64,000 nt of DNA from Elainella sp. Prado103 (GTDB lineage Bacteria > Cyanobacteriota > Cyanobacteriia > Elainellales > Elainellaceae): contig JALOOM010000040.1 of the NCBI GenBank assembly GCA_025454395.1, positions 1-64,000 of the forward strand, in the 5' to 3' direction. The notes beneath the pieces are model-generated. The model ran no database searches. It saw only the letters and a list, made by a program, of their open reading frames with translations, and was not told where the DNA came from. The translations under genes and the position numbers were made by a program. Shown piece by piece: positions 9,994 to 44,428 of the stretch (positions within the stretch are counted from its first letter, which is position 1; each line of letters starts with the position of its first letter).

Positions 9994-12390
9994 ATGGTTA
10001 GAGGACAAGCAAACCAACCCAGTCGCTTTCATACTCCTAGCAATCTACCTTATTCCCATCCCACCAGCCATGGCATTGCCCAACCCGAATCGTTGACCTC
10101 TCCTGGTTTGCCCCCTCATCAGCCGATCGCTCGATCGACCCCTGTTGATGTACCGCCTCAAGGACATCCCCTCAGCCAATTTCCGGAGGGGAGTATCAAG
10201 CTTGAGCCTATCAACCCCACCGTTGTAAATCCTACTGCCGTTGTAAATCCTACTGCCGTAAAAGCCGAGCCCGTAAAAGCCGAGCCCGCCGAATCTGAGT
10301 CTGTAAAAGCCGAGCCCGCCGAATCTGAGTTCAATCCACCTGATCCGCCCATCGATCCCATCAGTCTCGGCGAACCAGCCAGTCTGGAGATGCCAGTCGG
10401 TCAGTTCCAGCCCGCCCATTCCACCAGTCGATCAATTCCGATCCACCAGCTTGGGGCTCAACTCCGTCAATTTCAGCAACTGACTCAAAAAGAGCGGCAG
10501 GTGATCGCCCAACTGCTGCTGAAATTACCGATCGATCTCAAGATTCCCCCCACTCGATCCTGGCGCTGGTCGGTGATCTGTTTGGGCATTTTGGGGCTTT
10601 TCGGTGGGATTGGGCTTTCTGCCTACATTTGGCTGGCAGGTTTACCTCCACTGCCCAATTGTGAAGCCACGACTCCCCTATCTCCCGATGCTCACAGGCT
10701 CTACTGTGCGCAAGAAACAGCTCGATCGGGCAAGCTCGAAGATTTGCAGCAAGGGATCGCATTAGTCAAAAACTGGTCTCCAGACCATCCCCTCTATCGC
10801 GATGCCCAAGCTTCACTGACCAAATGGTCACGGTTAGTTTTATTGATTGCCCGTGACAAGATGCAGCACAACGACTTCAAGGGGGCAGCAGCGGCGATCA
10901 GTCAAATTCCGGCTGCCAGTTCGGTGTATGCCGAAGCCCAGCAAACCCTCAACACCTGGCAGGCAGAATGGCAAAAGGGTGAAGATCTCTACACCAAAGC
11001 TATGGAAGCGATCCAACAGCAAAACTGGGGTATTGCCTTTGGCTATGTCAGTCAGTTGGGAGGGATCGAGCATGATTATTGGCGACTACACCAGGCCGAT
11101 CGGCTGGCAAATCAAATTTTGGTGCAGAAAGAATCTCAGGAAGCCCTTAAACAGGCTAAAAAGCTGGCGAAACGGCTGGCTCCTGAACAGATGGGAGCAG
11201 CGATCGAACAGTTGCAGGCTGTGGCTCCTGAAACTCATGCTTGGGCAGAAGCACAGTTGCTCCTCACCCAATGGAGTCAGTTTCTCTCTCAAACGGCGAT
11301 GCGCTATTGGCAGGACGGTCATTTAGCGATGGCGCAGGAACTGGCCCAGCAAATTCCGCTCAATCCGGCTTTACCCGTTGAAGCGCAAGATCTGGTCAGG
11401 TTTAGTCATGCCCAACAGTTAGTGGAAGAGAGCCAAATTGAGGCAAAAGCTTCCTGGAAGCAAGTTTGGCAACTCCTGGAAGCCACAACCGCACTCAAAC
11501 AGATTCAACCTGACAGTCCACTGTACAGCGATGCTCAAGCTAAACTGCAAAACTGGCAAGCCCAGCTTCAAGATTTACAACAGCTTCAGTTTGCAAACTG
11601 GGCAGCCGATCTAGGGCACAAACCCACCTTGCAATATGCGATCGACCAAGCAGAGCAGATTACTTCTGATCGCCCCAGATATGGTCAGGCGCAAAACTTG
11701 ATTACCCTCTGGCAAAGCCGCGTAGAGCGGATTGAAGATCTCCCCTTTTTAGTACGCGCCCAAGGGTTTGCTGCCACTGAAACCATTGAGAACCTGCAGT
11801 TGGCGATCGAACAAGCCTCCGTGGTACCGTCGCATCGCGGCTTATGGACAGAGGTGCAGGCCCAAGTGACCGTTTGGCAAGCCCAGATCGAGAAAATCGA
11901 AGACCAGCCGATCCTGGCACGGGCTCAAGCCTTAGCCAAAGCCAACAAACTGCCAGAAGCCATTGCTGTTGCGGCTGAAATTCGTCCAGAACGCAGCTTA
12001 TTTGGCGAGGCTCAAATGGCTATTGCGGCGTGGAATGAGAAGATCCAGGCGGCCTTAGTGGCAGAAGATCAAGCCCTGATCGATCGGGCTCGTCAACATG
12101 CTGCCCAGAGCCGTCTCACCGAGGCAATTGCCGCAGCCGCTGAGATTACGCCGGGTCGCCCCCTCTACCTGGAAGCCCAAGCTGCGATCGGAGATTGGCT
12201 CCGAGAACGGGATGGTTCTCTCAAATCGGAGTCTCCAGAATCAGCCGATGAGAGTTTCGAGATCCCGTCAGGTAGCTTACTAGAACCCCTATTCGAGAGC
12301 CCAATCGATTCAGACGCTTCAGCCGAGGGGGGAGGAGACAGTTTAGGAAGCGAACCCAGCAGCGATCTCCCAGGCGAAACTTTGGAGTAA
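9994..12390 (+). CDS. single-pass membrane protein with helical repeats (paralogue 1)
   Basis: 798 residues, function unknown. A disordered Pro/Ser/Glu-rich N-terminal part of about 190 residues contains a repeated VKAEPAESE unit. One membrane segment follows at about 192-214 (WSVICLGILGLFGGIG). The long C-terminal part is helical and built of degenerate units of about 55-60 residues, each ending in a YxxAQxxIxxW pattern; the last three begin EDLPFLVRAQ, EDQPILARAQ and EDQALIDRAR. Two Cys just after the membrane segment (PNC and LYCAQE, 16 apart) are shared with the gene at 13307 and could form a disulfide. Relatives are often labelled chromosome segregation ATPase, but no ATP-binding motif is present. 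It precedes its paralogue and a receiver-DUF3685 gene on the same strand. Confidence 0.75.
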   Translation: MVRGQANQPSRFHTPSNLPYSHPTSHGIAQPESLTSPGLPPHQPIARSTPVDVPPQGHPLSQFPEGSIKLEPINPTVVNPTAVVNPTAVKAEPVKAEPAESESVKAEPAESEFNPPDPPIDPISLGEPASLEMPVGQFQPAHSTSRSIPIHQLGAQLRQFQQLTQKERQVIAQLLLKLPIDLKIPPTRSWRWSVICLGILGLFGGIGLSAYIWLAGLPPLPNCEATTPLSPDAHRLYCAQETARSGKLEDLQQGIALVKNWSPDHPLYRDAQASLTKWSRLVLLIARDKMQHNDFKGAAAAISQIPAASSVYAEAQQTLNTWQAEWQKGEDLYTKAMEAIQQQNWGIAFGYVSQLGGIEHDYWRLHQADRLANQILVQKESQEALKQAKKLAKRLAPEQMGAAIEQLQAVAPETHAWAEAQLLLTQWSQFLSQTAMRYWQDGHLAMAQELAQQIPLNPALPVEAQDLVRFSHAQQLVEESQIEAKASWKQVWQLLEATTALKQIQPDSPLYSDAQAKLQNWQAQLQDLQQLQFANWAADLGHKPTLQYAIDQAEQITSDRPRYGQAQNLITLWQSRVERIEDLPFLVRAQGFAATETIENLQLAIEQASVVPSHRGLWTEVQAQVTVWQAQIEKIEDQPILARAQALAKANKLPEAIAVAAEIRPERSLFGEAQMAIAAWNEKIQAALVAEDQALIDRARQHAAQSRLTEAIAAAAEITPGRPLYLEAQAAIGDWLRERDGSLKSESPESADESFEIPSGSLLEPLFESPIDSDASAEGGGDSLGSEPSSDLPGETLE

Positions 12391-13306: not shown

Positions 13307-15715
13307 ATGGTGAAATCGTCTTTTAAAGATCGTTTTGAGAAAAGTTTTCGTTTTAAACAGCACTTCCAGCAGAAGTCCCAATCTAAACAGCCCCAATCTA
13401 AACAGCCCCAATCTAAGCCCCAATCCGACCCGTCTCCATCTAAGCAGCACTTCCATTTATGGATGTGGACTCGTTTGAGTGATCGCCTGGAACATCAGCC
13501 CTCAGAAGGATCGCAGGGCGAAATACGGTTTGGCGAAATGCGGATTGAAGGCATTAATGACTCGAATGCATCCCCCACAGGGACTTCAGAGGCTCCACTC
13601 AAACGATCGCCCCATCGCTTTCACCCTCCTAAACTCCCTCAGCCCCAACTGCCAGAAGCTTTAAAGCCTTGGCGCTGGTCATTAGTTTGGTTAGCCGCCT
13701 TAGGAATATTAGGAGGGATGGGGACAGCAGCCCTCATCTGGCTCATTTCCTTGCCTCCCCAGGTTGATTGCCGCAATCCAGCCCGATTGTCGCTGGATAT
13801 GGAAAAGCTATATTGCGCTCAAGAAGCTGCTCAGAATGGGGAGTTACCCAAGCTCGTGGATGGCATCAAACTCCTGAGCCAGTGGACTGCCGATCACCCG
13901 CTACAGCGAGAAGCACAGCGTTTAATCAACGATTGGTCTGACCAAATTTTTACAATTGCGATCCGGGAGGTCGAGAAAGGCAACCTGAAAGCGGCCGAGT
14001 CGGCGATCGGGCAGATCCCCAATTCAGCCGAAATTTATACCGATGCCCAAAAAGCGATCGTCCGCTGGCGAAAATATAGCCAAGATGCCTCAGATCTCTA
14101 TGCTACCGCCGAGAAAGCGCTGAAGCAGCGAGATTGGGCCACTGTATCTCAACAGATTGTCCGGCTCGCCGAATTTGAGCGCGACTACTGGGAATTGCAG
14201 AAAGGCGCGGATGCTCTCGTCAAACAGATGGGAGTCGAAAAACAAGCCTGGCAAACCTTGATTCGGGCCCAAAAAATGGCGGCTGGTAGTTTAACGGAAT
14301 TGGGAGAAGCCATTCCCCTGGCTCAGCAAGTGCCGCCCGACACCTACGCGGCTGAAACCGCCAAAGCTGACCTGAAGCGCTGGAGTGAAAAACTGCTGAC
14401 GGCAGGGGTGCAGCAATGGCAGAAGGGCGATCGAGACGGCACCCTGAAAACATTACAACTCCCCTCCCGGTTGAAAAATACGCCAGAAGTGGCTGACCTC
14501 TATCGGTTTAGCCAGGCCTATCAGCTTGCCGCATCCGCCATTGCAGAACAGTGGGAACCGTCTGTTGGAGAATTACTCACCCTGCATGAAGCGATCGCTG
14601 CCCTAAAGCAGGTGCCCTCCAATAGCCCCTTTCATACCCAAGCTCAATCGCTAACCCAACAGTGGCAATCCGAGCTGGAGGATCTGGTGCAGTTGAAATA
14701 TGCCAGCATGGCGGCCAAATGGGGGCAGCATTCTACCCTGGAACTGGCCATCGGGCAGGCCAAGCTCATTGAGGCAAAACGACCACGGCGCTTGCAAGCC
14801 CAATCTATGATTGCCCACTGGCAACAGGAAACCGAACGTCTTGAAGATCAACCGATCCTGAACCGCGCCAAACGTCTGGCTGAGACGGGTACGATCGCCT
14901 CACTCCAATCAGCAATTGCTGAAGCCAGTGAAGTGAAGCTTGGACGGGCTCTACGCCAATCAGCCCAAACCCTGATTGCGACTTGGCGCTCCCAGATTCA
15001 AACCCTGGAGGATCGGCCCATGTTGGCCCGCGCAGAAGTACTAGCCGAACAAGGCGAGTTGAATGCTGCCATTGTGGCCGCCAGCGAAATTCAACCTGGA
15101 CGATCGCTTTACTCGCAAGCCCAAGCGGCAATTAGTGAGTGGCGTGAGCAATTAGTAGTAGATGCTCAGATTGCCCAAGATCAGCCGATTCTCGATCGAG
15201 CGAATGCCTTAGCTGATAGCGGTAATTTGGCAGGTGCTATCCGCGTTGCCTCCGAAATTGGCAGTGGTCGGGCCCTTTCTCAGCAGGCCCAAACGGCGAT
15301 TAACCGCTGGGAGCAACAGCTTTATCCACCTGCTCCCACCCCGCCTGATGTGGATGATGCCCGCGATAACTGGATCCCTGCTGATCAGAACTATTTTGAT
15401 CAGCCAGAAGATTCAGCCATCGATCGATCGACCGATCCACCTGAAAGCGGAGCTAACTCCTTCCCCAGTCCTAGCCCTAACGGCTTTCCGACTCCTGGCA
15501 GTTCCCCTAATCCTCTGCCAGAGTTGCAACTGGTACCCCCATCTTCCTATCAACCGCTGCCTCAATCCTCGGAACAGCCCTTGCCTGCTGCTTCACCCAA
15601 CTTCCCTGCACCGAGTGCGCCATCGGCTGCCCCAACTGAAGAGCCAATGCCGCCCAGCGAGCCCCTGCCTCCGGCTTCTCTGGATCCCCTTCCCCCTAGC
15701 TCTTTGAATCAATAG
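13307..15715 (+). CDS. single-pass membrane protein with helical repeats (paralogue 2)
   Basis: 802 residues, homologous along its central part to the protein at 9994. The N-terminal tail is short and basic with a repeated QSKQP unit; the membrane segment is at about 122-145 (WSLVWLAALGILGGMG). After it come the same paired Cys (VDC and LYCAQE) and the same helical repeat units, the last three opening EDQPILNRAK, EDRPMLARAE and QDQPILDRAN. The final 120 residues are Pro/Ser rich and differ from paralogue 1, so duplication was followed by divergence of both tails. Function is unknown; the repeats suggest a protein-binding scaffold on the non-cytoplasmic side. It ends 151 bp before the receiver-DUF3685 gene. 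Confidence 0.75.
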   Translation: MVKSSFKDRFEKSFRFKQHFQQKSQSKQPQSKQPQSKPQSDPSPSKQHFHLWMWTRLSDRLEHQPSEGSQGEIRFGEMRIEGINDSNASPTGTSEAPLKRSPHRFHPPKLPQPQLPEALKPWRWSLVWLAALGILGGMGTAALIWLISLPPQVDCRNPARLSLDMEKLYCAQEAAQNGELPKLVDGIKLLSQWTADHPLQREAQRLINDWSDQIFTIAIREVEKGNLKAAESAIGQIPNSAEIYTDAQKAIVRWRKYSQDASDLYATAEKALKQRDWATVSQQIVRLAEFERDYWELQKGADALVKQMGVEKQAWQTLIRAQKMAAGSLTELGEAIPLAQQVPPDTYAAETAKADLKRWSEKLLTAGVQQWQKGDRDGTLKTLQLPSRLKNTPEVADLYRFSQAYQLAASAIAEQWEPSVGELLTLHEAIAALKQVPSNSPFHTQAQSLTQQWQSELEDLVQLKYASMAAKWGQHSTLELAIGQAKLIEAKRPRRLQAQSMIAHWQQETERLEDQPILNRAKRLAETGTIASLQSAIAEASEVKLGRALRQSAQTLIATWRSQIQTLEDRPMLARAEVLAEQGELNAAIVAASEIQPGRSLYSQAQAAISEWREQLVVDAQIAQDQPILDRANALADSGNLAGAIRVASEIGSGRALSQQAQTAINRWEQQLYPPAPTPPDVDDARDNWIPADQNYFDQPEDSAIDRSTDPPESGANSFPSPSPNGFPTPGSSPNPLPELQLVPPSSYQPLPQSSEQPLPAASPNFPAPSAPSAAPTEEPMPPSEPLPPASLDPLPPSSLNQ

Positions 15716-24729: not shown

Positions 24730-27288
24730 ATGACCTATATTGCCCCATCGGCTCAGAAGACGAGTGCCGGTGTTTCGTTGATCGCTCCCTTATCTGGGCG
24801 GCTAGTGCCGATCGATCGGGTGCCTGATCCAGTGTTTGCTGAAAAAATGGTGGGAGATGGCATCTCGATCGATCCCACCAGTCAAGTGTTACTTGCACCC
24901 TGCGATGGTGAAGTGGTGCAGTTACATCCCTCTTGCCATGCCATTACGGTGAAAACGGCGGAAGGACTGGAAGTTTTGATGCACATTGGCTTAGAAACAG
25001 TGGCACTGAGGGGAGAAGGCTTCAAACCGCATGTCAAGATGGGCGATCGAGTTAAGGTGGGCGATCCTCTGATTGAATTTGACCCGGACTATGTAGCCTT
25101 GAATGCCAAAAGCCTACTCACCCAGATTGTGATCAGCAATAGCGATCAGGTCGCGAAATTTACCCCTCACACTGGGTTGGTGGCTGTTGGGCAAGATGTG
25201 ATTCTCGATTTGGATCTGGCTGGATCCAGCCAAACTATCTCTACCCAAACAGGAGTCACCGTTACCTCTGACCCCATTATTATTCCCAATCCCACTGGAC
25301 TTCATGCCCGCCCAGCCGCCGTACTCGTCAACCTGGCCAAAAAATACAAATCCAACCTGAAGCTGAAACGAGGCGATAAAGCTGTGAGTGCTCGCAGTGT
25401 GGTGGGTTTGATGGGATTAGAAGTTGCTCATGGCGATACGGTGCAGTTGATTGCCGATGGGACTGATGCCGTTGCAGCAATTGCCGAACTGAGTGAAGCC
25501 CTGCGCACGGGGTTGGGAGAAGAAGGCGCGAAACCCGTCAGTTCTACCGCCAGTGTGGCTGCTCTCACGGCTGCTCCCCCTCCGCCTCGACCGCGATCGA
25601 CCGATCCCAACTTGATTTTAGGAGTGGCGGCTTCGCCTGGATTAGCGGTGGGTTATAGCTATGCCCTGCGGCGGCAGGAGATTGAAGTAGCCGAAGCGGG
25701 CAGCAACCCCAATCAAGAGCGCCGTCAGTTTGAGCAGGCGATCGATCAAGCCAAATCGGAAATTGAAGCCTTGCGAGCTAAGGTGCATGGACAGGCCGAT
25801 GCGGGCAAGGCGGCCATTTTTGCAGCCCATCTGGAATTGCTAGAAGATCCAGAAATTACTGACATGGCTACCAACCTGATCGATAAGGGCAAGAGTGCGG
25901 CCTTTGCCTGGAAGCAGGCTTATACCAACCAGGCTAATACCCTGGCCAACCTGAAGAATGAATTGCTAGCAGCTCGGGCAAATGACTTGCGAGATGTGGG
26001 TGGGCGGGTATTACGCATTCTCACCGGCACCTCAGTCGAAGCGGTGTCTTATCCCGATCGGTGCATTTTGTTGGCAGAAGATTTGACTCCTTCCGATACG
26101 GCCACCATGCAACAAGGTAAGGTACTAGGGTTCTGTACGGTCGGCGGTGGGGCAACTTCTCATGTTTCCATCCTGGCTCGATCGATGGATATTCCCGCCA
26201 TTGCTGGAGCCGAAGCGCGCATTATGGATCTGCCCGATGGCACGCCCGTGATTTTGGATGGCAGTAAAGGCAAACTGCGGTTGCATCCCTCACCGGAGGA
26301 AATGGATCGGGTTCAAACAGCCCAAGTGCGTCTGAAAGCCAAGCGAGAAGCCGATCTGGCGACCGCCGATCAACCGGCTATAACGCGAGACGGGTACCGA
26401 ATTGAGGTAGTGGCCAATATTGGCAATCAGAAAGATGCTGAGCGATCGGTACAACTCGGTGGCGAAGGGGTTGGGTTATTGCGATCGGAGTTTGTTTTTA
26501 TGGAGCGAGACAGTGCTCCTAGTGAAGATGAGCAAACTGAGATCTACAGCCGGATTGCTCGGGCATTAGGCGATCGGCCGCTGATCATTCGTACCCTGGA
26601 TGTCGGTGGAGACAAACCCCTACCCTATTTGCCGATTCCCCATGAAGAAAACCCCTTCTTAGGCGAACGTGGGATTCGGATTGGCTTCGATCGCCCCGAT
26701 ATCCTGCGAACTCAGCTCCGAGCCATTCTACGCGCTTCTACTCAGGGGCACGTTAAGGTGATGTTTCCCATGATTGCCACCCTGGAAGATTGGCGGATGG
26801 CCAAAGCCATGTTGGAGGAGGAACGACAAGCCCTTGGGGTTGCTTCGATCCCATCTGGGATTATGGTAGAAGTGCCTTCAGCCGCAGTGCTGGCCGATCA
26901 ATTTGCCCAAGAGGCTGATTTCTTCTCGGTGGGCACGAATGACTTGACCCAATATACATTGGCGATGGATCGCGGTCATCCTAAATTGGCTCCCCATGTG
27001 GATGGCTTAAATCCGGCAGTCCTCTCCCTGATCGGCATGGCCGCTCAGGCCGCCAATGCCCATGGTAAATTCTGTGGGATTTGCGGTGGCATCGGCAGTG
27101 ATCCCCAGGCGGTGCCCATTCTGATCGGTCTGGGGGTAAAAGAACTGAGTGTGAGTGTTCCCACCATTCCTAGCATTAAAGCCCAGATTCGCAATTTGAG
27201 CCTAGCCGATTGTCAGCAGTTGGCCGAACAAGCCCTGAAACTACGATCGGGTGCTGAAGTCCGAGAACTCTCTCCTTTGGAAGACTAA
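24730..27288 (+). CDS. PTS multiphosphoryl transfer protein, fused IIA-HPr-EI
   Basis: 852 residues carrying three general or sugar PTS domains in order. IIA of the glucose type covers about 17-150, with the phospho-His in [10 protein letters not shown]. HPr covers about 180-265, with the active His in [11 protein letters not shown] and a regulatory-type Ser in [11 protein letters not shown]. Enzyme I covers about 293-852, with His in [15 protein letters not shown] near residue 477, PEP-binding [12 protein letters not shown] and a C-terminal Cys in [11 protein letters not shown]. It would pass phosphate from PEP through EI and HPr to IIA and on to the IIB of the next gene. Fusions of this order are known in Gram-negative bacteria (NagF-type). 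ATG follows AAAGGAG by 7 bases. No catalytic residue is missing. Complete sugar PTS is uncommon in cyanobacteria. Confidence 0.93.
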
Positions 27289-27298
27289 GGCGGAGAAA

Positions 27299-27341
27299 AC
27301 GTTCCTTATTCACTCACGTTCCTTATTCATTCACGTTCCTT
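27299..27341. repeat. 16-bp tandem repeat in the PTS intergenic spacer
   Basis: ACGTTCCTTATTCACTC and variants occur 2.6 times, filling almost the whole 53-bp gap and reaching the ATG of the permease gene. No ribosome-binding site is visible within it. Confidence 0.75.
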
Positions 27342-29303
27342 ATGTTCAAAAAAGCATTCGCTCTATTGCAGCAAATGGGTAAGGCACTGATGCTACCCGT
27401 CTCGGTGCTGCCGGTTGCCGGGTTGCTGCTGGGTATTGGCTCTGCCAAGTTCAGTAAACCCGAAGCCTTTGGTTGGCTGCCAGAATGGTTGGCCACCATC
27501 ATGAGACAATCGGGAGATGCCATTTTTGCTAATTTGCCAGTGATCTTTGCGATCGCCGTTACCATTGCTTTCACGGGCAATGATGGGGCCTCGGCCTTGG
27601 CAGCGATCGTGGGTTTTGCGGTATTTGTGGCGGCTTTAGGAGCTGCGGCCCAAACTTTCTTTGGCTATATCACTCCCCAGGCTATTTTAGCCAAGGGGCT
27701 CGATCCTAACACGGTGGGTTTGCTCAGCCCGCAAGAACTGGCTGCTAAAGGGCTTCCTGAAACCGTGAATGTTCTAAAACCGGTGTTAGGCATCAATACC
27801 CTTGATACAGGGGTGTTTGGCGGCTTGCTGGTGGGCTGTCTGGCCGCTTATCTATTCAACAAATATTTCCGCATCCAGCTCCCCCAATATTTGGGCTTTT
27901 TCGCAGGCAAGCGGTTTGTGCCGATCATTACGGGTTTGAGTGCGATCGGGCTGGGTATTGTCATGAGTGTGGTTTGGCCACCGATTGGTCATGCCATTCA
28001 AACGGCTGCTAACGCGGCTGCCAAGGGTACGAATACGGCGATCACGGCTGCCATTTACGGGGTTGTCGAACGATCGTTGATTCCCTTTGGTCTACACCAT
28101 ATTTGGAACGTGCCGTTCTTTTTCGAGATTGGTCAATTTACCGATCCGGTGACCAATCAGGTAGTACGAGGTGACATTAACCGATTCTTTGCGGGAGACA
28201 AAACCGCCGGGATTTTGGGTGGAGCCTATTGGTTTAAAATGTTCGGTCTGCCAGGGGCAGCGATCGCCATGTGGCGAGTAGCCTATCCTAAAAACCGAGG
28301 CCGCGTCAGTGGTTTAATGTTCTCTGCTGCTTTCACTTCCTTTCTAACAGGTATTACGGAACCGTTAGAGTTTTCCTTCATGTTTGTTGCTCCCCAACTT
28401 TATGCCATTCATGCCTTGCTCGCTGGATTTTGTCAGTGGTTATTCCAAACCATGGGTGGCAAGATGGGCTTTACCTTCTCACAAGGGGGAATCGACTTTC
28501 TGTTATTCAACAGCCTTGGAACCAAAGCCTGGTTGGTTCCGGCATTCGGGCCGCTTTTCTTTGCCCTGTATTTCGTGATTTTCTACTTTGGCATTAAACA
28601 ACTGAATCTGAAAACACCCGGTCGGGAAGACGATACGGCGGATGAAGCAGGCATTGGACTGAGCAGCGACGGCAACGAAATGGCTCGCGAATTGGTGCGG
28701 GCTTTTGGGGGACGTGGCAATATTCAAACCCTGGATGCTTGCATTACTCGGTTACGAATCAGTGTCCATGATATGAAGAAGGTGAATAAAGCTCGCCTGA
28801 AAGCTTTGGGTGCTTCTGGGGTGCTAGAAGTGGGCAACAATGCGCAAGCGATCTTTGGGCCCCGATCGGAAAACCTCAAAACTGACATGATGGAATACCT
28901 GAAGGTTGCTGGAGCTGAGGCCGATGAAGCCTATGAACCCAATGCCTCTGAAATCGCAGCGGCTGCCAGTTCAGATGGTTCAACGGTAGGAACCGCAGTC
29001 AATGTTGCTGGCAATGGAGGCAACAAAGCTGATGGGGCGATCGATCAGGCACCTGAAGTTCCTATCAATGTAGAAGGTGTCGTCATGGCACTTGGAGGAC
29101 GCAGGAACATTCGCCAGATTGACAGTGTTGCGCTCACCCGACTACGGATCGAAGTAGCAGATAGCAATATCGTCGATGAAGCCGCCCTGGTAGATGCAGG
29201 CGTGCAAGGCATTCTCCGCATTCCCGGTGGTAAACTGCACCTGATCGTTGGCTTAGGTGCGGATCAATATGCGACTGAAATCAAAAACTTAGCCAGAGCC
29301 TGA
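27342..29303 (+). CDS. PTS permease IIC-IIB with a second, degenerate IIB domain (glucose/GlcNAc family)
   Basis: 653 residues. IIC spans about 1-415 with many membrane helices and the signature [18 protein letters not shown] follows at about 445-520; its phospho-Cys is in [12 protein letters not shown] near residue 467. A second IIB-like domain at about 575-653 keeps the TRLR motif but has Ala in place of Cys ([12 protein letters not shown]), so it cannot carry phosphate. A Ser/Ala/Gly-rich linker joins them. The protein imports and phosphorylates a hexose; glucose versus N-acetylglucosamine cannot be settled, because no nagA, nagB or regulator gene adjoins it. The missing IIA is supplied by the upstream fusion gene, 53 bp away, so the two form an operon. 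Confidence 0.9.
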
Positions 29304-36149: not shown

Positions 36150-37208
36150 GATGAGGCTCCTATGGATTGGATGAGACGAATATGATGTTGGAATTGCAAA
36201 CACTAGAACTACAAACAGTGGAACTAGGGAGATCTGAAGAGCGCTGAAATTACAAAAACTGGAATGGGATATGGGGCTGGGGTGTAGCTTGCTTCTGCGC
36301 AGCAGTGGGCAGTTTGAGCTTTGTCAGTCAATCAACTGGCAACCTGGGATTAGCAAACTTGGCTAACCAGACTGATTCGTAAGATTGGCTGGTGATTTCA
36401 TTTCTATTTCTCCCAGCAGGATGCCACCTGCTATCCAGTTCGCTGGCCAATCGGCTGAGCAAATGACTCAATCCTTCATAGCCAATCGCTTTTCATAGCT
36501 CAATTTTTCATAGCTCAATATGGCTGAGCTGAGCCGCCTTGTAGGGTAGCTACTGGGTTATACCAATTCTTTGTGAAGCTGAGCAGGACAAGGGGTTGAA
36601 GCTCCTTGTCTAGCAAGAATTTACTCTGCGCAAGCTCATATCAAATTGGTATTAGCGACTGAGTTAGCTGCTCTAACCCAGCCAATATCGAGCTGGCGAT
36701 CGTGGATAGTGCCGTCAGCTAAATCCTGCTGTTCAGTAAACTGATCGATCAAACTTGCCGGAATTTCGGTTGAACTAGAATCTGTCAATCTAACTAGATG
36801 GATCTAAATCTAACCAGATATCTGTTTGACCAATTGACCTCCAGCAATAATGCCACAGGCAATTCTTGCTCAAACCTACTAAAGCAAGCCCACTCAGATC
36901 GATCAGCTCATACTGGGCCCTTCACACCGATCGGCCCAAGAGAGTGCGGGATCTGCAAAGCGCTTACGCTGTAGTTTCATGTCCAGATACCACATGGATA
37001 ACCAAGGGTGTCCAGCCAATGAAAAATCTTTCAACGCTTTCACCTTAAAATAACGCGATAACAGTCTCAGTCTAACACCTACATCGGTGCGATCGTCCGA
37101 ATATTTGCGGAAACCCTAAGTTTTCTGGGACTGACTAAAAAACATGAACGGATCTCCGTCAAAGTTCTAGGGAGTATTACGATCAATATAGTGCGATTTG
37201 GAGGAGTT
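36150..37208. other. gene-free spacer of about 1 kb
   Basis: No credible gene. It contains direct repeats of CATAGCTCAAT(TTTT) at 36490-36522, a 97-bp element with terminal inverted repeats at 36558-36654, and the start signals of the next gene at its end. Confidence 0.5.
36558..36654. mobile_element. MITE-like element with short terminal inverted repeats
   Basis: TTATACCAATT at the left end matches the reverse complement of AATTGGTATTA at the right end in 10 of 11 positions. The 97-bp interior codes for nothing. Similar ATACCAATT-ended palindromes are frequent in cyanobacterial spacers, from memory. No target-site duplication was established, so this is a candidate only. Confidence 0.4.
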
Positions 37209-38699
37209 ATGCGTTCTTCGTGGTCTGAGCCATATCTATGGGTGCATTTAGCTGGGATCGCAGCAGTGCCTCTCTGCCTAGAGATCTGCGTGATCGGGCT
37301 AGCTGCCAGTGAAGCAAAGCTACCAACCCTGCTCGTCTGGCCGATCGTGGCAACCATTGGGTTGATCCCGATCGTCTGGATGCAGTGGCAGCGACCTTTC
37401 TGCATTTTTAGCCTCACGCCCCTTGTGCTTAAACCTGCCCAGCTCAGCGAAACTCAGCGTCGTCTACTGCGCCGGTTTAAAGCTCCGATCGGACGAGGGA
37501 TCACGATCGCGATGGCCATTGTGGCGATTAGTCTACTGATTTGGATACAACGGTGGGTTCCCTTAGCAGCCCAATTGGCCAGGGCGGTTCCGGCTGGAGC
37601 TTTCGGTGGTCTAGGACTTGCTGCGATCGGCTTTTTCCTCACGCATCTGTTTCTGCAAGTGCCTGCGAGTGTGCTGGCAGTATTGCTAACCCCCGAAGCA
37701 CAAATTCAACAAGCAGAACCCTATCCCGTGAATGCGATCAGTCGCAATTTCTCCCTAATGGGTTTGCCGGTCAAACAAATCTTACCGCCGATCACTGCCC
37801 AAGCTTCAGTTCCCAGTGCAAGCCCCAGTGCAGGTCCCAGTGCAAGTCCCAGTGCAAGTAGTGCCCCGACATCAGCACAATCTACTGCTGCCACTTCTGC
37901 GACCACTTCTGCGACCACTTCTGCGACCACTTCTCTTGCTCCGACACCTGAAGTGCCTCCTGAAGTGCCTTCTGAAGTGCCTCCTCGATCGCCCCAGTCT
38001 ACCCCGCCTGCAACAACCGTCTTGGAAGCCGAAATTTTGGAACCTGATGAGATGGAATTAGCGGGAGACGCACTTGTGCTACAAGCTGAACTGGAGCCAG
38101 AAGATTTAGCGCCAGAAGATTTAGAGTCAGGAGATTTAGCGCCAGAAGATTTGGAGTCAGAAGCTTTAGCGCCAGAAGCTAAAAATTTAACGGTTGCAGC
38201 CGCTCCAGAATCTGAACTAGAGCGACAATCCGAACTAGAGCGACAATCCGAACCAGAACGACAATCCGAACCAGACCCCCCCTCATCGCTTAGTCTACCT
38301 AATCCATTTGTGTTAGATACAGACGATCTATTAGAGCCGATCGAACCTATATCGGCACCTGATGTATCAAATCCTGCCATATCAGACCCAACAGTCACAG
38401 AATCACCGGCATCTGACTGGCTGACATCTGAATCACCTGAATCACCAGCATCTGAATCAATAACATCTGAAGCGTCAGTATCAAAACCCACCGGATCTCA
38501 TGTCAGCACAACCGTAGTCACGATCATTCCTGCTGGTTATCCATCAGCTTTGCCAAATCTGCTGGAGCAGTCCCCTGTTTCAGATTCTACGATCGATTTC
38601 CCAATCGCTTCTACCATCAACTCCTCGATCGGTCTAGCTAATGAACTCGTCGCTATTCCGCCTCAAGTTAGTACCACTGTTGTCATAATCATTCCTTAA
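37209..38699 (+). CDS. low-complexity-tail membrane protein (cyanobacterial)
   Basis: About 496 residues. The first 185 residues are conserved in kind: RSSWSEPYLWVHLAGIAAVP, then membrane segments at about 10-33, 42-62, 96-116 and 124-150. The rest is low complexity, with SAS/PSA, TTSATTSA, EVPPEVPS and LAPEDLES repeats; the DNA there consists of short tandem units (for example 15-bp copies at 37895-37935). This matches the protein type named low-complexity tail membrane protein in cyanobacterial annotation. Function is unknown. ATG 37209 is chosen because GGAGGAG lies just upstream, over GTG 37191. The repetitive tail is expected to vary in length between strains. Confidence 0.75.
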   Translation: MRSSWSEPYLWVHLAGIAAVPLCLEICVIGLAASEAKLPTLLVWPIVATIGLIPIVWMQWQRPFCIFSLTPLVLKPAQLSETQRRLLRRFKAPIGRGITIAMAIVAISLLIWIQRWVPLAAQLARAVPAGAFGGLGLAAIGFFLTHLFLQVPASVLAVLLTPEAQIQQAEPYPVNAISRNFSLMGLPVKQILPPITAQASVPSASPSAGPSASPSASSAPTSAQSTAATSATTSATTSATTSLAPTPEVPPEVPSEVPPRSPQSTPPATTVLEAEILEPDEMELAGDALVLQAELEPEDLAPEDLESGDLAPEDLESEALAPEAKNLTVAAAPESELERQSELERQSEPERQSEPDPPSSLSLPNPFVLDTDDLLEPIEPISAPDVSNPAISDPTVTESPASDWLTSESPESPASESITSEASVSKPTGSHVSTTVVTIIPAGYPSALPNLLEQSPVSDSTIDFPIASTINSSIGLANELVAIPPQVSTTVVIIIP

Positions 38700-38741: not shown

Positions 38742-40022
38742 TTACCACTGTACCGTCGGCCCAGTTGGATATCTGGAGGTATTTCCCAATACAATCGTCA
38801 ATCCTCGATCGATCAATTCAAATAGTCTCATCTCAGTGTCATCGCCACGATTAGTCCAACTGAGAATAATCAGATCATGCACAGGCAGGTAAACCACGGT
38901 TGCCGAGAAGCCGATCGTCGTATCTGTCTGCCCCCAAACCTCACCCCAGCGAGTCATGGTGTTGACAATGCCTAATCCATAGCCACCACGTCGGGTTTCT
39001 ACAATGGTTAACATCTTTTCGCGCACAGGCTGAGGTAACAGTTTCTCTTCAAAAAACAACGATCGCATCAAACGTAGCAGATCAGGCGCATTAGAAACGA
39101 TCGCCCTACTCCTCAATCCTAAGCCTGTATGAATCAACGGCTGATTCACATCTTCCAGTTGACCATCAGCATTCAAATCCTGATAGCCCTGAACAGGGGG
39201 GGGGGAGCGATTCAGTTCCACAAATGTATCCGCGAGATTGAGCGGCTTGGCGATGTTAGACTGAACAAGCTCCGCCAATGATTGTCCACTGGCTTGTTCA
39301 ATAATCAACTCCAACAATAAATAATTCAGCGGTGAAGCAGTATAGCGCCCCCGTGACTGAGCCGTTTCAGGGGATTCCATGTAGGTGAAAATCTCTTCAA
39401 TTTGCCATTCGTGGGTTGGATCATTCAACACTGCTTGTCGAAATGCCGCTCGATCGAGATCTGGAATCGCGCTCGTGTGATTCAAGAGTTGCCGAATGGT
39501 AATCTGGTCACTATCAGGCAATGGCTCAGTGATTTCTGGAGGCAGCCATTGCGTGATTGGATCCCGTAAACTGAGCAGATCCTCCATTTCGAGCTGTAAG
39601 CAAATCACTCCGATCAGAATTTCACCTAAGCCACCCAGCCGAAAGCGATCGGTCGGCAGTAAATCCGTTTTTGCCGTGAGATTGGACTGACCAGTCGCAC
39701 CCATCCACTGGTGTTGGGAAGAGCTAATGGCCAAGACTGCCCCTGGAAGCTCATAGGCATCTACGTAGTCTTCTAATGTCATTTGCAGCTTACTCTCAGT
39801 TTCCAGAGGAAAGAGAGCATTGGCAGCTTCAGGCTCAGACTGCCCTTGCCACTGTTGTAGTCGGTTGGCAATCCCACGCTGCAATAGGGTTGGGTCTCCG
39901 TTCCGGCACCCATGACTGAAGATGACGAATATTATTGCCAGCATCGTCACCGGGATTGTTGCCGGACTCACCCATCCGATCCCATCTCGTCTCAGCTCTC
40001 GTCTCAGCCTTCGATTGCTCAT
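38742..40022 (-). CDS. serine hydrolase/beta-lactamase-fold protein, catalytic residues lost
   Basis: About 426 residues with an N-terminal hydrophobic segment at about 24-38 (VTMLAIIFVIFSHGC), so it is probably membrane anchored, perhaps as a lipoprotein. The fold is that of class C beta-lactamases and DD-peptidases: QITIRQLLNHTSAIPD and SPLNYLLLELIIEQASG are typical. The catalytic SxxK is replaced by GLGE in DRFRLGGLGEILIG; the Tyr motif reads YTAS; and the H/K-T-G motif reads GQTDTTIGFS. It is therefore predicted to be inactive and may bind peptidoglycan or ligands. ATG 40022 overlaps the stop of the upstream kinase (ATGA), so the two are translationally coupled. Confidence 0.85.
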   Translation of the reverse strand: MSNRRLRRELRRDGIGWVSPATIPVTMLAIIFVIFSHGCRNGDPTLLQRGIANRLQQWQGQSEPEAANALFPLETESKLQMTLEDYVDAYELPGAVLAISSSQHQWMGATGQSNLTAKTDLLPTDRFRLGGLGEILIGVICLQLEMEDLLSLRDPITQWLPPEITEPLPDSDQITIRQLLNHTSAIPDLDRAAFRQAVLNDPTHEWQIEEIFTYMESPETAQSRGRYTASPLNYLLLELIIEQASGQSLAELVQSNIAKPLNLADTFVELNRSPPPVQGYQDLNADGQLEDVNQPLIHTGLGLRSRAIVSNAPDLLRLMRSLFFEEKLLPQPVREKMLTIVETRRGGYGLGIVNTMTRWGEVWGQTDTTIGFSATVVYLPVHDLIILSWTNRGDDTEMRLFELIDRGLTIVLGNTSRYPTGPTVQW

Positions 40023-41587
40023 GTACCTGATCCCACCTGTGAACCTGGACAATAAATCGGTAGCGTAAACCAGAAAGTTGCTCCTTCGCCGGGTGCGCTG
40101 AACACCCCAATTTCTCCACCATGAGCTGCGATAATTTGTTTACAAAGGTAAAGCCCTAACCCTAAGCCTGGCATGTAGCGAGCCCGAAATCCTCTGGCAT
40201 AAAGCTCAAATAAACGCTGGCATTGTTCGGGTTCAATGCCGATCCCATTATCTTGTACCAGGCAAAACAACATGGGCTCTTTCATTTTTTGCTTCGTTGT
40301 GGGGATAGCCCTCAGTCTATAGCTGTTCCATTCAGCGGCTCTCCAGCCTATGTTGCTGTTTGAGCCTATTCCCAAAACTGTAGCATCTAGTGTTAACTCA
40401 ATTTCATGAGGATTATGCTTCAAAGCGTTCTCGATCAGGTTGCTGAAAACGCGCCAGAGTTGGTCGGCATCAGCATTGATGATCGGTAGGTGATCGCTAA
40501 TTCGATGTTGGAGCTGAATTTGTTTTTCACTGAAGCGATCCTGTAAATCAAATAGCACAGAATCCACTACAGGTTTTAAGTGTAGGGGTTCACAGTGTAA
40601 AACAATGCCTTGAATTTCAGTAGCATGGGATTCAATCAATGAGTTGATTAGGGTGAGCTGTCGATCGCTGCCCTGTAAGAGGCGTTCAACAATCGATCGT
40701 TTGACTGCGATTTCGTCAGCGTTGATCTGGTTCAAATCAATGGGTTTCTTGAGCAGACTTTTGAGCACGATTGAAGTACCCAGCACAGGCGTGCGCAGAT
40801 CATGAGAGATGGAATGGAGAAAAACTTGTAGCTGGCGACGAGCTTCAAACTCCGATCGTTTAAGTCGCTCATATAAATAAACCGCTAGATTGCTGACGGA
40901 GCAAACCCAGCCAATTTCGATTAATGTGCCCACCGAATAAAGATTAAATGTATTTGTGGTTCCCAGTGTGGTTAATCCAATCAACGGGTAAATAATGCCG
41001 TAATAGCCGAGTGGTAATGCTTGAGAAATCAGGTGGAGCCGCCAATGGACTGGAATGAGAACAGCGATCGCTAAGAATAACCGAGTATCAGGTAAAACAG
41101 GAATATGAAAGAAAGTTGAGATAATCTGTTCAATGAATTGATTGAGTGAACAGGCAAAGATTAAGAATAAAACTTCAGGATGCTGGCTTCCCCAGCGGGT
41201 TCTGCGGACAATTAAACAAACGATCAGTGATAATAGAATGGATGTATTGATCAACAGAGTGGCATCACGGTAGCGATCGGCGATCGAAGCATCGCCCAAA
41301 AATTTCAGCAGATCCGATCTCAACCGCTCTAAATTAAACAATACTGAGTAGGTGGTGTAAATAGCGTTGAGTGACACCCAAAACAACGCTAGCCATAACC
41401 CTAAATGGAGCCGTTTTTGTAAGAATTGTTGCCGCCAAATCAAATAATCAGTGGAATCTGGATGGGATTTGCCGCGACTCAGCCAATCTCGGATTTGGCG
41501 ATCTAACCAGTGGCGAGCCGATTGGACTGCTGAGGGCAGCGAGCTGGATTGACATGATCGGATCCCTGATCTGACAGACCATCGCAT
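40019..41587 (-). CDS. membrane sensor histidine kinase
   Basis: 522 residues. The N-terminal half carries about six hydrophobic segments between 62 and 240, without a known sensor domain. The kinase core is intact: H-box FLHSISHDLRTPV with His near 260, N-box VFSNLIENALKHN, G1 DNGIGIE, and G2 GLGLGLYLC. No receiver follows and no response regulator adjoins, so its partner is encoded elsewhere. The stop overlaps the start of the inactive serine-hydrolase-like gene by four bases. Upstream, an AI-2E family permease ends 19 bp from its start on the same strand, so the three form one likely operon. ATG 41587 is the only good start. Confidence 0.9.
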   Translation of the reverse strand: MRWSVRSGIRSCQSSSLPSAVQSARHWLDRQIRDWLSRGKSHPDSTDYLIWRQQFLQKRLHLGLWLALFWVSLNAIYTTYSVLFNLERLRSDLLKFLGDASIADRYRDATLLINTSILLSLIVCLIVRRTRWGSQHPEVLFLIFACSLNQFIEQIISTFFHIPVLPDTRLFLAIAVLIPVHWRLHLISQALPLGYYGIIYPLIGLTTLGTTNTFNLYSVGTLIEIGWVCSVSNLAVYLYERLKRSEFEARRQLQVFLHSISHDLRTPVLGTSIVLKSLLKKPIDLNQINADEIAVKRSIVERLLQGSDRQLTLINSLIESHATEIQGIVLHCEPLHLKPVVDSVLFDLQDRFSEKQIQLQHRISDHLPIINADADQLWRVFSNLIENALKHNPHEIELTLDATVLGIGSNSNIGWRAAEWNSYRLRAIPTTKQKMKEPMLFCLVQDNGIGIEPEQCQRLFELYARGFRARYMPGLGLGLYLCKQIIAAHGGEIGVFSAPGEGATFWFTLPIYCPGSQVGSGT

Positions 41588-41605: not shown

Positions 41606-42697
41606 TTAGGAAACCGAGGTTGTTTCTTCCGGCATATCAGGTAGGGAAAGCAGTGACGGTACATTTTTGGCTGCCCGAAATCGATCGACGGTGCCTTTGA
41701 TAAAACTGGCGATCGGCACAGCAATGAACAGTCCGAGTGCCCCCTTGAGCTTGAAGCCGATAAACACTGAAATGAGCATCCAGACGGGGTTGAGCCCGAT
41801 CAATTCGCCGACAATGCGGGGCCCCAACACATTCTCACTAATTTGGTTCACAATCACAGCCACTAGCAACACCTTGGCTCCTAACCAGACATCTTGCAGG
41901 GATACCAGTAGACTGACGGTGACAATCCCCACGGTGCCTCCTAGTGGCACTAGACTGGCCAGCCCGATCGTGAAACCAAACAGCAGCGATAGGGGTACGC
42001 CTAAAATAAATAGCGCGATCGTTTGCAGGGTCGCCAGCACGGTGGCTAAGGTGGCTTGCCCAGCGATATAACGCTCGAAATTGTCTGGCAGGTACTCGCG
42101 CACTTGAGTATTCCATTCGGTGGGGAGCCAGCCCAACACGCCACTCCAGAGCGACTGCCCGCGAAACACCAGAAACACAGCAAACACGACCGTCAGAAAA
42201 ATGTTGACGATGCTACCGATCGTATTAAACAACACATTCACTAACTGTCGGGTTAGGGAGCGCAAACTGCTGGTGAAGCGATCGATCGATTGGGTGATGG
42301 CTCCACTAATATCGATCGGTAACTGCTGGGTGGCGGCCCAACTTTCCAGATCATTCAGTTGACGACGGCCCGACTCAATCCATTCGGGTAATTTGGTGAG
42401 TAGCTCATTTGCCTGTTGCAAAATCAGTGGGCCCAGCACCAGCACCAGCAAACCGAGGAGCAAGACAAAAATGAGGAACACCAAACCCACTGCCACGATC
42501 CGTTTGGCTCCCAATTGCTCCAGAAATCGGATCGGGTAATCCAACAGAAAAGCAATCAGCGTGGCGGCGATCAAGATACTGACCAGCGGTTCAAGCTGAT
42601 CGATTAACTTGAGTAGGAGCCAACCGTTGAGAAACAGCAGGGGAAAGGCAAAACCCAAGCTAAACCAGCGCGGCAGCTTATTCAAAAACTCGAACAT
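41606..42697 (-). CDS. AI-2E family transporter (permease)
   Basis: About 363 residues with eight predicted membrane helices in the AI-2E/PerM layout, including the central soluble segment (about 100-170) and the family block near the C-terminus (GPRIVGELIGLNPVWMLISV, then KLKGALGLFIAVPIASF). Members move small molecules or ions and only some relate to autoinducer-2; the substrate is unknown. ATG 42697 (MFEFLNKLPRW) is chosen, GTG 42718 being in frame upstream. It begins the minus-strand operon with the kinase and pseudo-hydrolase. Confidence 0.9.
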   Translation of the reverse strand: MFEFLNKLPRWFSLGFAFPLLFLNGWLLLKLIDQLEPLVSILIAATLIAFLLDYPIRFLEQLGAKRIVAVGLVFLIFVLLLGLLVLVLGPLILQQANELLTKLPEWIESGRRQLNDLESWAATQQLPIDISGAITQSIDRFTSSLRSLTRQLVNVLFNTIGSIVNIFLTVVFAVFLVFRGQSLWSGVLGWLPTEWNTQVREYLPDNFERYIAGQATLATVLATLQTIALFILGVPLSLLFGFTIGLASLVPLGGTVGIVTVSLLVSLQDVWLGAKVLLVAVIVNQISENVLGPRIVGELIGLNPVWMLISVFIGFKLKGALGLFIAVPIASFIKGTVDRFRAAKNVPSLLSLPDMPEETTSVS

Positions 42698-42830
42698 AAC
42701 ACCTGATGATGGCGGCACAGCAGTATGTCCTTAAGGATGCCACATCTGTCCTATTCTGGCAGCTAGCCGATCAGGGGAATGGCATCATAAATTGGGCGGG
42801 CTAGCGAGTTGGCAATGAGAGCAAGAGGGC

Positions 42831-44066
42831 TTAGTCTACCTGATCGATCGCTTCTTCTGCCTTGCGCACGCCCTCAGCGTTGCTTTGCTGACGGTAAAGT
42901 TCACGCGCTTGCTCATAGGACTGTCTGGCTTCTCGATCCCGTTCCCGTCCTTGCAGTGCCACCCCCAACAAAAAGTGGGCTTCCGGATCTTCTGGATTCA
43001 GGTCGATCATCTTCCGGTAAGAGACGATCGCCCGCAGATAGTCTTGTTGATCGAGATAGAGCTGCCCTAATTCAGTATGGGCTTCCCGCAGGTTCGGTTG
43101 CACTGCTACTGCCTTTTCATATTGCAGGCGAGCTTGCTCGTAGTTGCCTTGGGCTTTGTAGACATCACCAATTTGCAGATGAATCACGCCATTGCGGGGT
43201 TCCAGTTCAGCAGCCCGCTTGAGGGCATTCATGCCGCCCACCATGTCACCCAGATTGAGCCGAGCGATCCCCAGATTTAACTGTACGGTGCTGCTGCGGG
43301 GAGCAAGTTGCTCGGCACGTTCGAGAGCCCGTAATGCTTCCGGATAGCGTGCTTCTTGCAAATAGGCTGCCCCGATCGACTCATACAACTGCCCATTGTT
43401 GGGATTGGTGGTTAAGACTTGTTGGTAAGCCGTAATGGCACCCTCATAGTCGCCTAAACGGGACAGCACCACACCTAAGCCTAGATAGGCTTCCACGTCA
43501 TTACGCCGCAGTTGGGTGGTTCGCCGGTAGGCTTCTGCGGCTCCCCGATAGTCTCCCAAACTGGCTTTGCTGAAGCCAAGGGCATAATAGAAATCTGGGT
43601 TGTTAGATTCTAAACGAATAGCCTGTTGGTAGGCTTCAACGGCGGCATCAAAGTTGTTTTGCCGAGTTTCCAGAAAACCGATCGCGGAATAAATGCGAGC
43701 GTTGCTCGGATCCAACTGGGCCGCTTCCTGATAAAGCGAAATGGCTTCTGTGACTCTGCCTGCCTGCACCAAATCCCGTCCTTGATCCAGCAACTCATTC
43801 AGCCGGTCTTCCATCGCAGGCGAGAGTTCTTGATTAGTCTGCTGCGCGATAGCCTGCTGAGTGATGATCTGAGGTGCAATCTGGGGGAGGGACTGAGCAT
43901 GAGGGGGGTGGATCGGCTGGGCCTGGACTATCCGGGGCATTGTTCCCCCCAGCCCTAACACGATGCCAAGGGTCAGTAAGACTTGGTGTCCTCGAACAGG
44001 CAGGCTGTCAAATCGGTAACTTGCCAATTTGTAACCCCCAATCCGGTGCAGGAGTGATAATCTCAT
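42831..44066 (-). CDS. exported TPR-repeat protein
   Basis: About 411 residues. A signal segment at about 28-48 (VLLTLGIVLGLGGTMPR, cleavage near VQAQ) leads to a Gln/Pro-rich linker and then about nine 34-residue tetratricopeptide repeats, with typical helices such as AIRLESNNPDFYYALGFSKA and AVQPNLREAHTELGQLYLD. TPR arrays hold protein partners; periplasmic location is inferred from the signal. ATG 44066 is preferred to TTG 44111 because it gives a compact signal peptide, although no ribosome site is obvious. Only 29 bp separate this start from the divergent YbjQ gene, so their promoters must overlap each other's coding region. Confidence 0.8.
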   Translation of the reverse strand: MRLSLLHRIGGYKLASYRFDSLPVRGHQVLLTLGIVLGLGGTMPRIVQAQPIHPPHAQSLPQIAPQIITQQAIAQQTNQELSPAMEDRLNELLDQGRDLVQAGRVTEAISLYQEAAQLDPSNARIYSAIGFLETRQNNFDAAVEAYQQAIRLESNNPDFYYALGFSKASLGDYRGAAEAYRRTTQLRRNDVEAYLGLGVVLSRLGDYEGAITAYQQVLTTNPNNGQLYESIGAAYLQEARYPEALRALERAEQLAPRSSTVQLNLGIARLNLGDMVGGMNALKRAAELEPRNGVIHLQIGDVYKAQGNYEQARLQYEKAVAVQPNLREAHTELGQLYLDQQDYLRAIVSYRKMIDLNPEDPEAHFLLGVALQGRERDREARQSYEQARELYRQQSNAEGVRKAEEAIDQVD

Positions 44067-44095
44067 TGAATGTTGAGTGCGTGTGAGAACAATAG

Positions 44096-44428
44096 ATGAT
44101 TCTAGCAACAACTGATGCCGTTCAAGGGGTGATCGTGGAAGCCTATCTCGGTGTCGTAACCGCAGAAGTTGTGTATGGTTCCAATGCGTTACGCGATTTT
44201 TTTGCGGGCATTCGTGACATTATTGGCGGACGCACAGGCAGCTACGAGCGGGTATTTGAACGCGGACATCGGGATGCCCTTACCGAACTTCAGCAACGAG
44301 CCAATGCGTTGGGAGCCAATGCGGTTTTGGGAATTAAAATTGACACTGGTTCGATCAATATTGGCGAAACGGGAGCCCTATTGCTGATTACCGCTTCTGG
44401 GACGGCGGTGCGCTTACGCAATGGTTAG
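44096..44428 (+). CDS. YbjQ/UPF0145 family protein
   Basis: 110 residues, cytoplasmic, a compact domain that assembles as a pentamer or decamer in known structures and is called heavy-metal-binding, although function is unproven. Typical features are YLGVVTAEVVYGSN, GIRDIIGGRTGSYE, and RANALGANAVLGIKID. The ATG is 29 bp from the divergent TPR gene. An intrinsic terminator follows. Confidence 0.9.
   Translation: MILATTDAVQGVIVEAYLGVVTAEVVYGSNALRDFFAGIRDIIGGRTGSYERVFERGHRDALTELQQRANALGANAVLGIKIDTGSINIGETGALLLITASGTAVRLRNG

Follow-up and report, generated by a model that had tools for sequence, protein, structure and literature searches.

A predicted S12-fold pseudoenzyme lipoprotein and its overlap with an apparently foreign histidine kinase gene in the cyanobacterium Elainella sp. 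Prado103

In the beta-lactam sensor BlaR1, a class D-like domain is acylated through its serine and the signal is passed on by a metalloprotease. A lipoprotein can also serve kinase signaling in an accessory role, as does QseG, which is not an S12 fold. QseG acts on the kinase QseE (PMC6075780, PMC12691602), whose periplasmic domain spans 140 residues (PMC6075780). Catalysis by class C PBPs, in turn, rests on a tetrad of Ser, Tyr, His, and Lys (PMC4570186). Among open PMC papers, we found no literature match for an S12 pseudo-sensor working with a kinase, or for a two-component system associated with an RTX-S12 protein.

Here we analyze a locus that brings these themes together, in the draft genome of a cyanobacterium (5.84 Mb, 157 contigs; assembly GCA_025454395.1). 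It lies within a stretch of 64,000 nucleotides, contig JALOOM010000040.1, hereafter the window. There, the reading frame of a histidine kinase overlaps that of a serine-hydrolase-fold protein, and the original prediction, made from the sequence, saw in the two a layout that fits a sensor pair. Our analysis separates two matters: first, dead PBP-like lipoproteins that form a conserved clade and sit beside lnt in relatives, and second, a kinase family that recurrently neighbors S12 genes. Both offer testable leads on cyanobacterial cell-envelope surveillance, and translational coupling in a single genome emerges as weak evidence for a functional pair.

Gene arrangement and fold of the pseudo-hydrolase

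Four genes follow one another on the minus strand in the order TPR, AI-2E, kinase, and S12-fold protein. The features of the locus are as follows:

42831..44111, minus strand: TPR-repeat protein; synteny makes it the ancestral companion of the AI-2E gene
41606..42718, minus strand: AI-2E family transporter (PF01594), which closes a TPR–AI-2E pair that has no kinase in relatives
40019..41587, minus strand: sensor histidine kinase of 522 aa (HATPase_c and HisKA), assigned as xenologous to the genus kinases by tree and AU test
40880..41410, minus strand: membrane sensor part of the kinase, with about six hydrophobic segments and short loops by hydropathy; no Pfam match
40019..40022, minus strand: ATGA shared by the kinase stop and the hydrolase start, read directly from the sequence and translations
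38742..40022, minus strand: S12/class C PBP-like pseudo-hydrolase of 426 aa, a predicted lipoprotein (PF00144; AlphaFold model)
39906..39908, minus strand: codon of the predicted lipidated Cys39, invariant in 17/17 orthologues, with a hydrophobic stretch before each
39621..39632, minus strand: first lost motif, GLGE at the SxxK position (residues 131–134), as aligned to the orthologues and to 32 S12 proteins of the outgroup
39330..39338, minus strand: second lost motif, ASP at the YxN position (residues 229–231), from alignment
38922..38930, minus strand: third lost motif, QTD at the HxG position (residues 365–367), from alignment
37191..38699, plus strand: membrane protein with a repetitive acidic/Ser/Pro tail (synteny family F3; no Pfam match)

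Sequence and translations agree that the kinase stop (TGA, 40021–40019) and the hydrolase start (ATG, 40022–40020) have the four bases ATGA in common, as first noted. Because such overlaps are frequent in bacterial operons, this one argues by itself for co-transcription only. The AI-2E gene, which had been thought to start the same operon, does end just 18 bases upstream of the kinase start, but it derives from a different ancestral block: in five relatives (G138, G261, G118, G099, and G186), synteny places no kinase after the TPR–AI-2E pair.

Elsewhere on the plus strand, the window encodes, at 24730–29303, a fused PTS EIIA-HPr-EI protein and, next after it, an EIICB protein (PTS_EIIC and EIIB); a full sugar PTS set is uncommon among cyanobacteria. 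It also holds, at 9994–12390 and 13307–15715, two neighboring long, paralogue-like proteins with Gln/Trp-rich repeated helices after a membrane segment.

The S12/class C PBP-like fold of the hydrolase is established by a profile match to PF00144 (108.8 bits against a cut-off of 27), a sequence match to AmpH-type class C PBPs and S12 peptidases (E 1.5e-32), and an AlphaFold model derived from relatives (pLDDT 80.9), whose best solved counterparts are D-amino acid amidase, R61 DD-peptidase, and alkaline D-peptidase (Z 38–39, residues 73–416). Alignment finds all four tetrad residues replaced (Ser131Gly, Lys134Glu, Tyr229Ala, and His365Gln), and GLGE, ASP, and QTD in place of the SxxK, YxN, and HxG motifs of active S12 proteins. 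The original prediction had correctly reported the loss of SxxK and of KTG, the class C equivalent of which is HxG; its statement that the fold persists is borne out, but it had overlooked the loss of YxN. The protein is a true pseudoenzyme, as its first description as catalytically dead had it. The missing serine also undoes the proposed BlaR-like ligand-sensing logic, as Gly131 leaves nothing to acylate.

The protein had further been described as membrane anchored. The anchor is best read as a predicted lipoprotein signal, to which the invariance of Cys39 points. Several relatives have good lipoboxes; that of the window protein, F-S-H-G-C, is weaker than theirs, with atypical residues S-H-G at positions −3 to −1.

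Conservation and usual neighborhood of the pseudo-hydrolase

Seventeen orthologues, the window copy and those of 16 other genomes, show how widespread the motif losses are. The catalytic Lys is lost in 15 of the 17, with Glu at its position in 13; Ser is lost in 14 of the 15 Lys-less proteins, His in 13 and Tyr in 9. Only the G166 and G207 proteins keep all motifs. In the outgroup, SxxK is present in all 32 S12 proteins and the full set of motifs is kept almost without exception. The loss of the Lys in 15/17 orthologues argues for a conserved pseudoenzyme and against local decay; the dead enzyme is of long standing, and its gene vertically inherited. The full tree suggests a single ancestral loss of catalysis, and with the catalytic columns masked, one loss and several are not separated (AU p 0.35).

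Is the window copy itself decaying? At the 53 columns invariant in the other orthologues it differs at two, inside the range of those orthologues, so it is not; simple local decay is excluded by this continuing constraint together with the losses common to 15/17. The original prediction had held that SxxK-keeping relatives away from kinases would speak for such decay, and only 2/17 orthologues keep the motifs. Against the G138 protein, differences at the three codon positions are 0.39/0.24/0.64. The terminal branch of the window hydrolase is the longest of the genus (0.62 vs. 0.30; for lnt, 0.41 vs. 0.40), a length that fits new selection and relaxed constraint equally. We make no claim of constraint relaxed in the window alone, as unique changes number 50 versus 30 with one outgroup pair and 40 versus 43 with another.

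The genomic surroundings of the orthologues are equally informative. When the original gene pair was sought at the 16 orthologue loci in other genomes of the family, a homologue of the window kinase adjoined the hydrolase at none; the pair conservation expected of a QseG-type accessory lipoprotein is thus absent (0/16). Instead, the divergent upstream neighbor, in every locus whose contig extends far enough, is lnt, the gene of apolipoprotein N-acyltransferase (LNT_N and CN_hydrolase domains), often with a DUF4359 gene next after it. Several loci have, as downstream convergent 3′ neighbor, a homologue of the low-complexity membrane protein at 37191–38699 of the window. Congener G118 has a hydrolase orthologue, and in the window genome lnt and the DUF4359 gene lie together on another contig, C43.

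Origin of the kinase and the S12 genes beside its family

The H-box HDLRTP and the HATPase_c domain (E 3.5e-22) identify the kinase as a two-component histidine kinase; its HisKA match, 24.3 bits, falls slightly under the cut-off of 26.9. Hydropathy gives its roughly six membrane segments no sizeable extracytoplasmic loop. In a maximum-likelihood tree it joins kinases of G247 and G200 with support 100/97, and a larger tree adds G270, G307, and G169 as partners; three partners come from other families. An AU test rejects its grouping with four congeneric kinases (p = 1.7e-10). The GC content of its gene is 45%, compared with 50–53% for the surrounding AI-2E, TPR, and hydrolase genes, and it lacks flanking long repeats, direct or inverted, which speaks against an IS-like or repeat-flanked insertion. 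By phylogeny, the window kinase is a xenologue, foreign relative to its genus. A conserved kinase/pseudoenzyme sensor pair is thus not supported, with 0/16 orthologues beside this kinase family and a kinase that is foreign. As a separate observation (L052:2905-4203, minus strand), the kinase closest to that of the window, from G247, adjoins a PDZ-domain S41 peptidase; a homologue also lies beside the G186 kinase (L057).

Close orthologues of the kinase usually adjoin a NarL-type response regulator; in the window no family regulator is adjacent. Two orphan NarL-type regulators, of the family that usually accompanies this kinase, are found on contig C32 of the window genome (L075:403-1209 and L076:6258-6899); the former occupies the old kinase locus, now without its kinase. 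Congeners there have the order response regulator, histidine kinase, PRC-barrel-like gene, sucD, sucC, and ald (gene names assigned by reading the sequences rather than by profile search), and the window genome has the same order minus the kinase. The regulator of this kinase-less locus belongs to the genus clade and is vertical. On the simplest reading, the old genus kinase was lost and a foreign kinase entered at a new site.

The surroundings of 80 further loci of the kinase family yielded the most interesting new result, a recurrent kinase–S12 neighborhood. In G005, G059, G233, G240, and G317, an S12 gene directly adjoins the kinase and is divergent from it, with the regulator on the other side of the kinase; in G307, G203, and G189, it lies near a family kinase in a looser arrangement. 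These S12 proteins, of about 594–665 aa, keep SxxK, and those of G189 and G203 are altered at the other two motifs; RTX repeats were detected by Pfam for the G233 (L068) protein and by eye in others. Across 50 kinase genes, in genomes of the class with counted S12 genes, eight have an S12 gene within 3 kb or less against 0.22 expected, a large excess, from a post hoc count that ignores contig ends. Even as only four independent events, the proximity has p of about 8e-5, and the S12-adjacent kinases are dispersed over the kinase tree. The regulator–kinase–S12 cassettes, regulator and kinase convergent and S12 divergent, occur in five genera of four families (L068:152-4349, L070:1069-5307, L176:2982-7026, L177:4739-8957, and L179:3927-7934). 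The original prediction is borne out in part: the pseudoenzyme is real and conserved, and a conserved sensor pair is not supported. In its favor, the family recurrently neighbors other S12 hydrolases, although these mostly keep their motifs and are usually divergent.

These counts soften the case for a pairing by chance alone: with proximity this far above chance, the junction in the window may have been favored for a reason. A functional kinase–S12 relation is plausible, with the dead S12 protein as receptor a candidate only. One such reason would be that envelope S12 proteins are the targets of the kinase family, under its control, and that the window kinase gained its place beside the only S12 gene of its genome for common expression. 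The excess itself, the five cassettes in which S12 is divergent as befits an output gene, and the adjacency of the sole PF00144 gene of the window genome to its kinase all speak for this. We nonetheless regard it as unlikely, since the window S12 protein is dead and from a different, lnt-associated branch, lies in the same operon instead of divergently, and has no parallel in the nearest sister kinases (G247, G270, G307, and G200), which lack an S12 neighbor.

About as unlikely is a role for the dead lipoprotein as the accessory receptor of the kinase, in which it would bind a ligand (a cell-wall peptide or a beta-lactam-like compound) and alter kinase activity, with the logic of BlaR or the form of QseG. 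Translational coupling, the conserved dead fold, the recurrent S12 neighbors of the kinase family, and the existence of kinase-driving accessory lipoproteins such as QseG for QseE (PMC6075780, PMC12691602) are in its favor, but the pairing is absent from 16/16 orthologue loci, the kinase offers no sizeable outside domain for a lipoprotein to grip, and in most S12 neighbors of sister kinases the catalytic motifs are intact. Similarly unlikely is a combined scenario, in which a cyanobacterial family of six-helix kinases is functionally tied to class C PBP-like proteins and has here recruited a dead, lipid-anchored member into the kinase operon as a ligand-binding accessory; if true, this would be a sensor pair observed as it evolves.

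A probable lineage-specific junction and its relation to known systems

Because the kinase, the AI-2E gene, and the hydrolase stem from separate ancestral blocks, the locus is better described as a lineage-specific junction than as a conserved BlaR-like pair. Our preferred reading, to which we assign a probability of roughly two in three, is that the operon is a three-way junction of one genome, in which the pseudoenzyme keeps an older role and the kinase signals via a distant regulator. A rearrangement joined the end of the TPR–AI-2E pair to the pseudo-hydrolase and to a kinase whose relatives lie in other genera and families. The ATGA overlap that resulted makes co-transcription and translational coupling of kinase and dead enzyme very probable. 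With its six-helix segment the kinase most likely senses the state of the membrane, and its phosphorylation target is most likely the orphan NarL-type regulator that stayed behind at the former genus locus. The lipoprotein, for its part, most likely retains an older envelope role of binding without cutting, now co-expressed with the kinase; the two might conceivably signal to each other directly.

No congener has DNA spanning either junction, in a genus sample of only five genomes, so that the pair could also occur in closer relatives outside it. This restriction to one genome, and a draft of 157 contigs, might suggest that the junction is misassembled, or that the arrangement is decaying and without function. 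We consider that very improbable: both frames are intact with an exact ATGA overlap, the protein is still under constraint, and lnt and the kinase-less genus locus are found independently elsewhere, as a real rearrangement predicts.

Set against the described systems, the junction resembles each in part. AmpH-type class C PBPs and S12 peptidases (R61 DD-peptidase, alkaline D-peptidase 4y7p, and D-amino acid amidase) have the whole fold in common with the window protein, which differs in its fully replaced tetrad, its predicted lipoprotein signal, and the lnt neighborhood of its relatives. In QseE–QseG–QseF, kinase and lipoprotein likewise belong to one operon, but QseE has a large periplasmic domain, and the operon is conserved there and not here. 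The beta-lactam sensors BlaR1 and MecR1 also tie a penicillin-recognizing fold to a membrane signaling protein, whereas the window fold is class C-like and without the serine of BlaR1, and its partner is a separate kinase. Finally, the cyanobacterial cassettes of regulator, kinase, and S12 (RTX) protein found here likewise combine an S12 gene with a neighboring kinase from this family, as in the window, but with SxxK kept, RTX repeats where tested, the S12 gene divergent, and the regulator adjacent.
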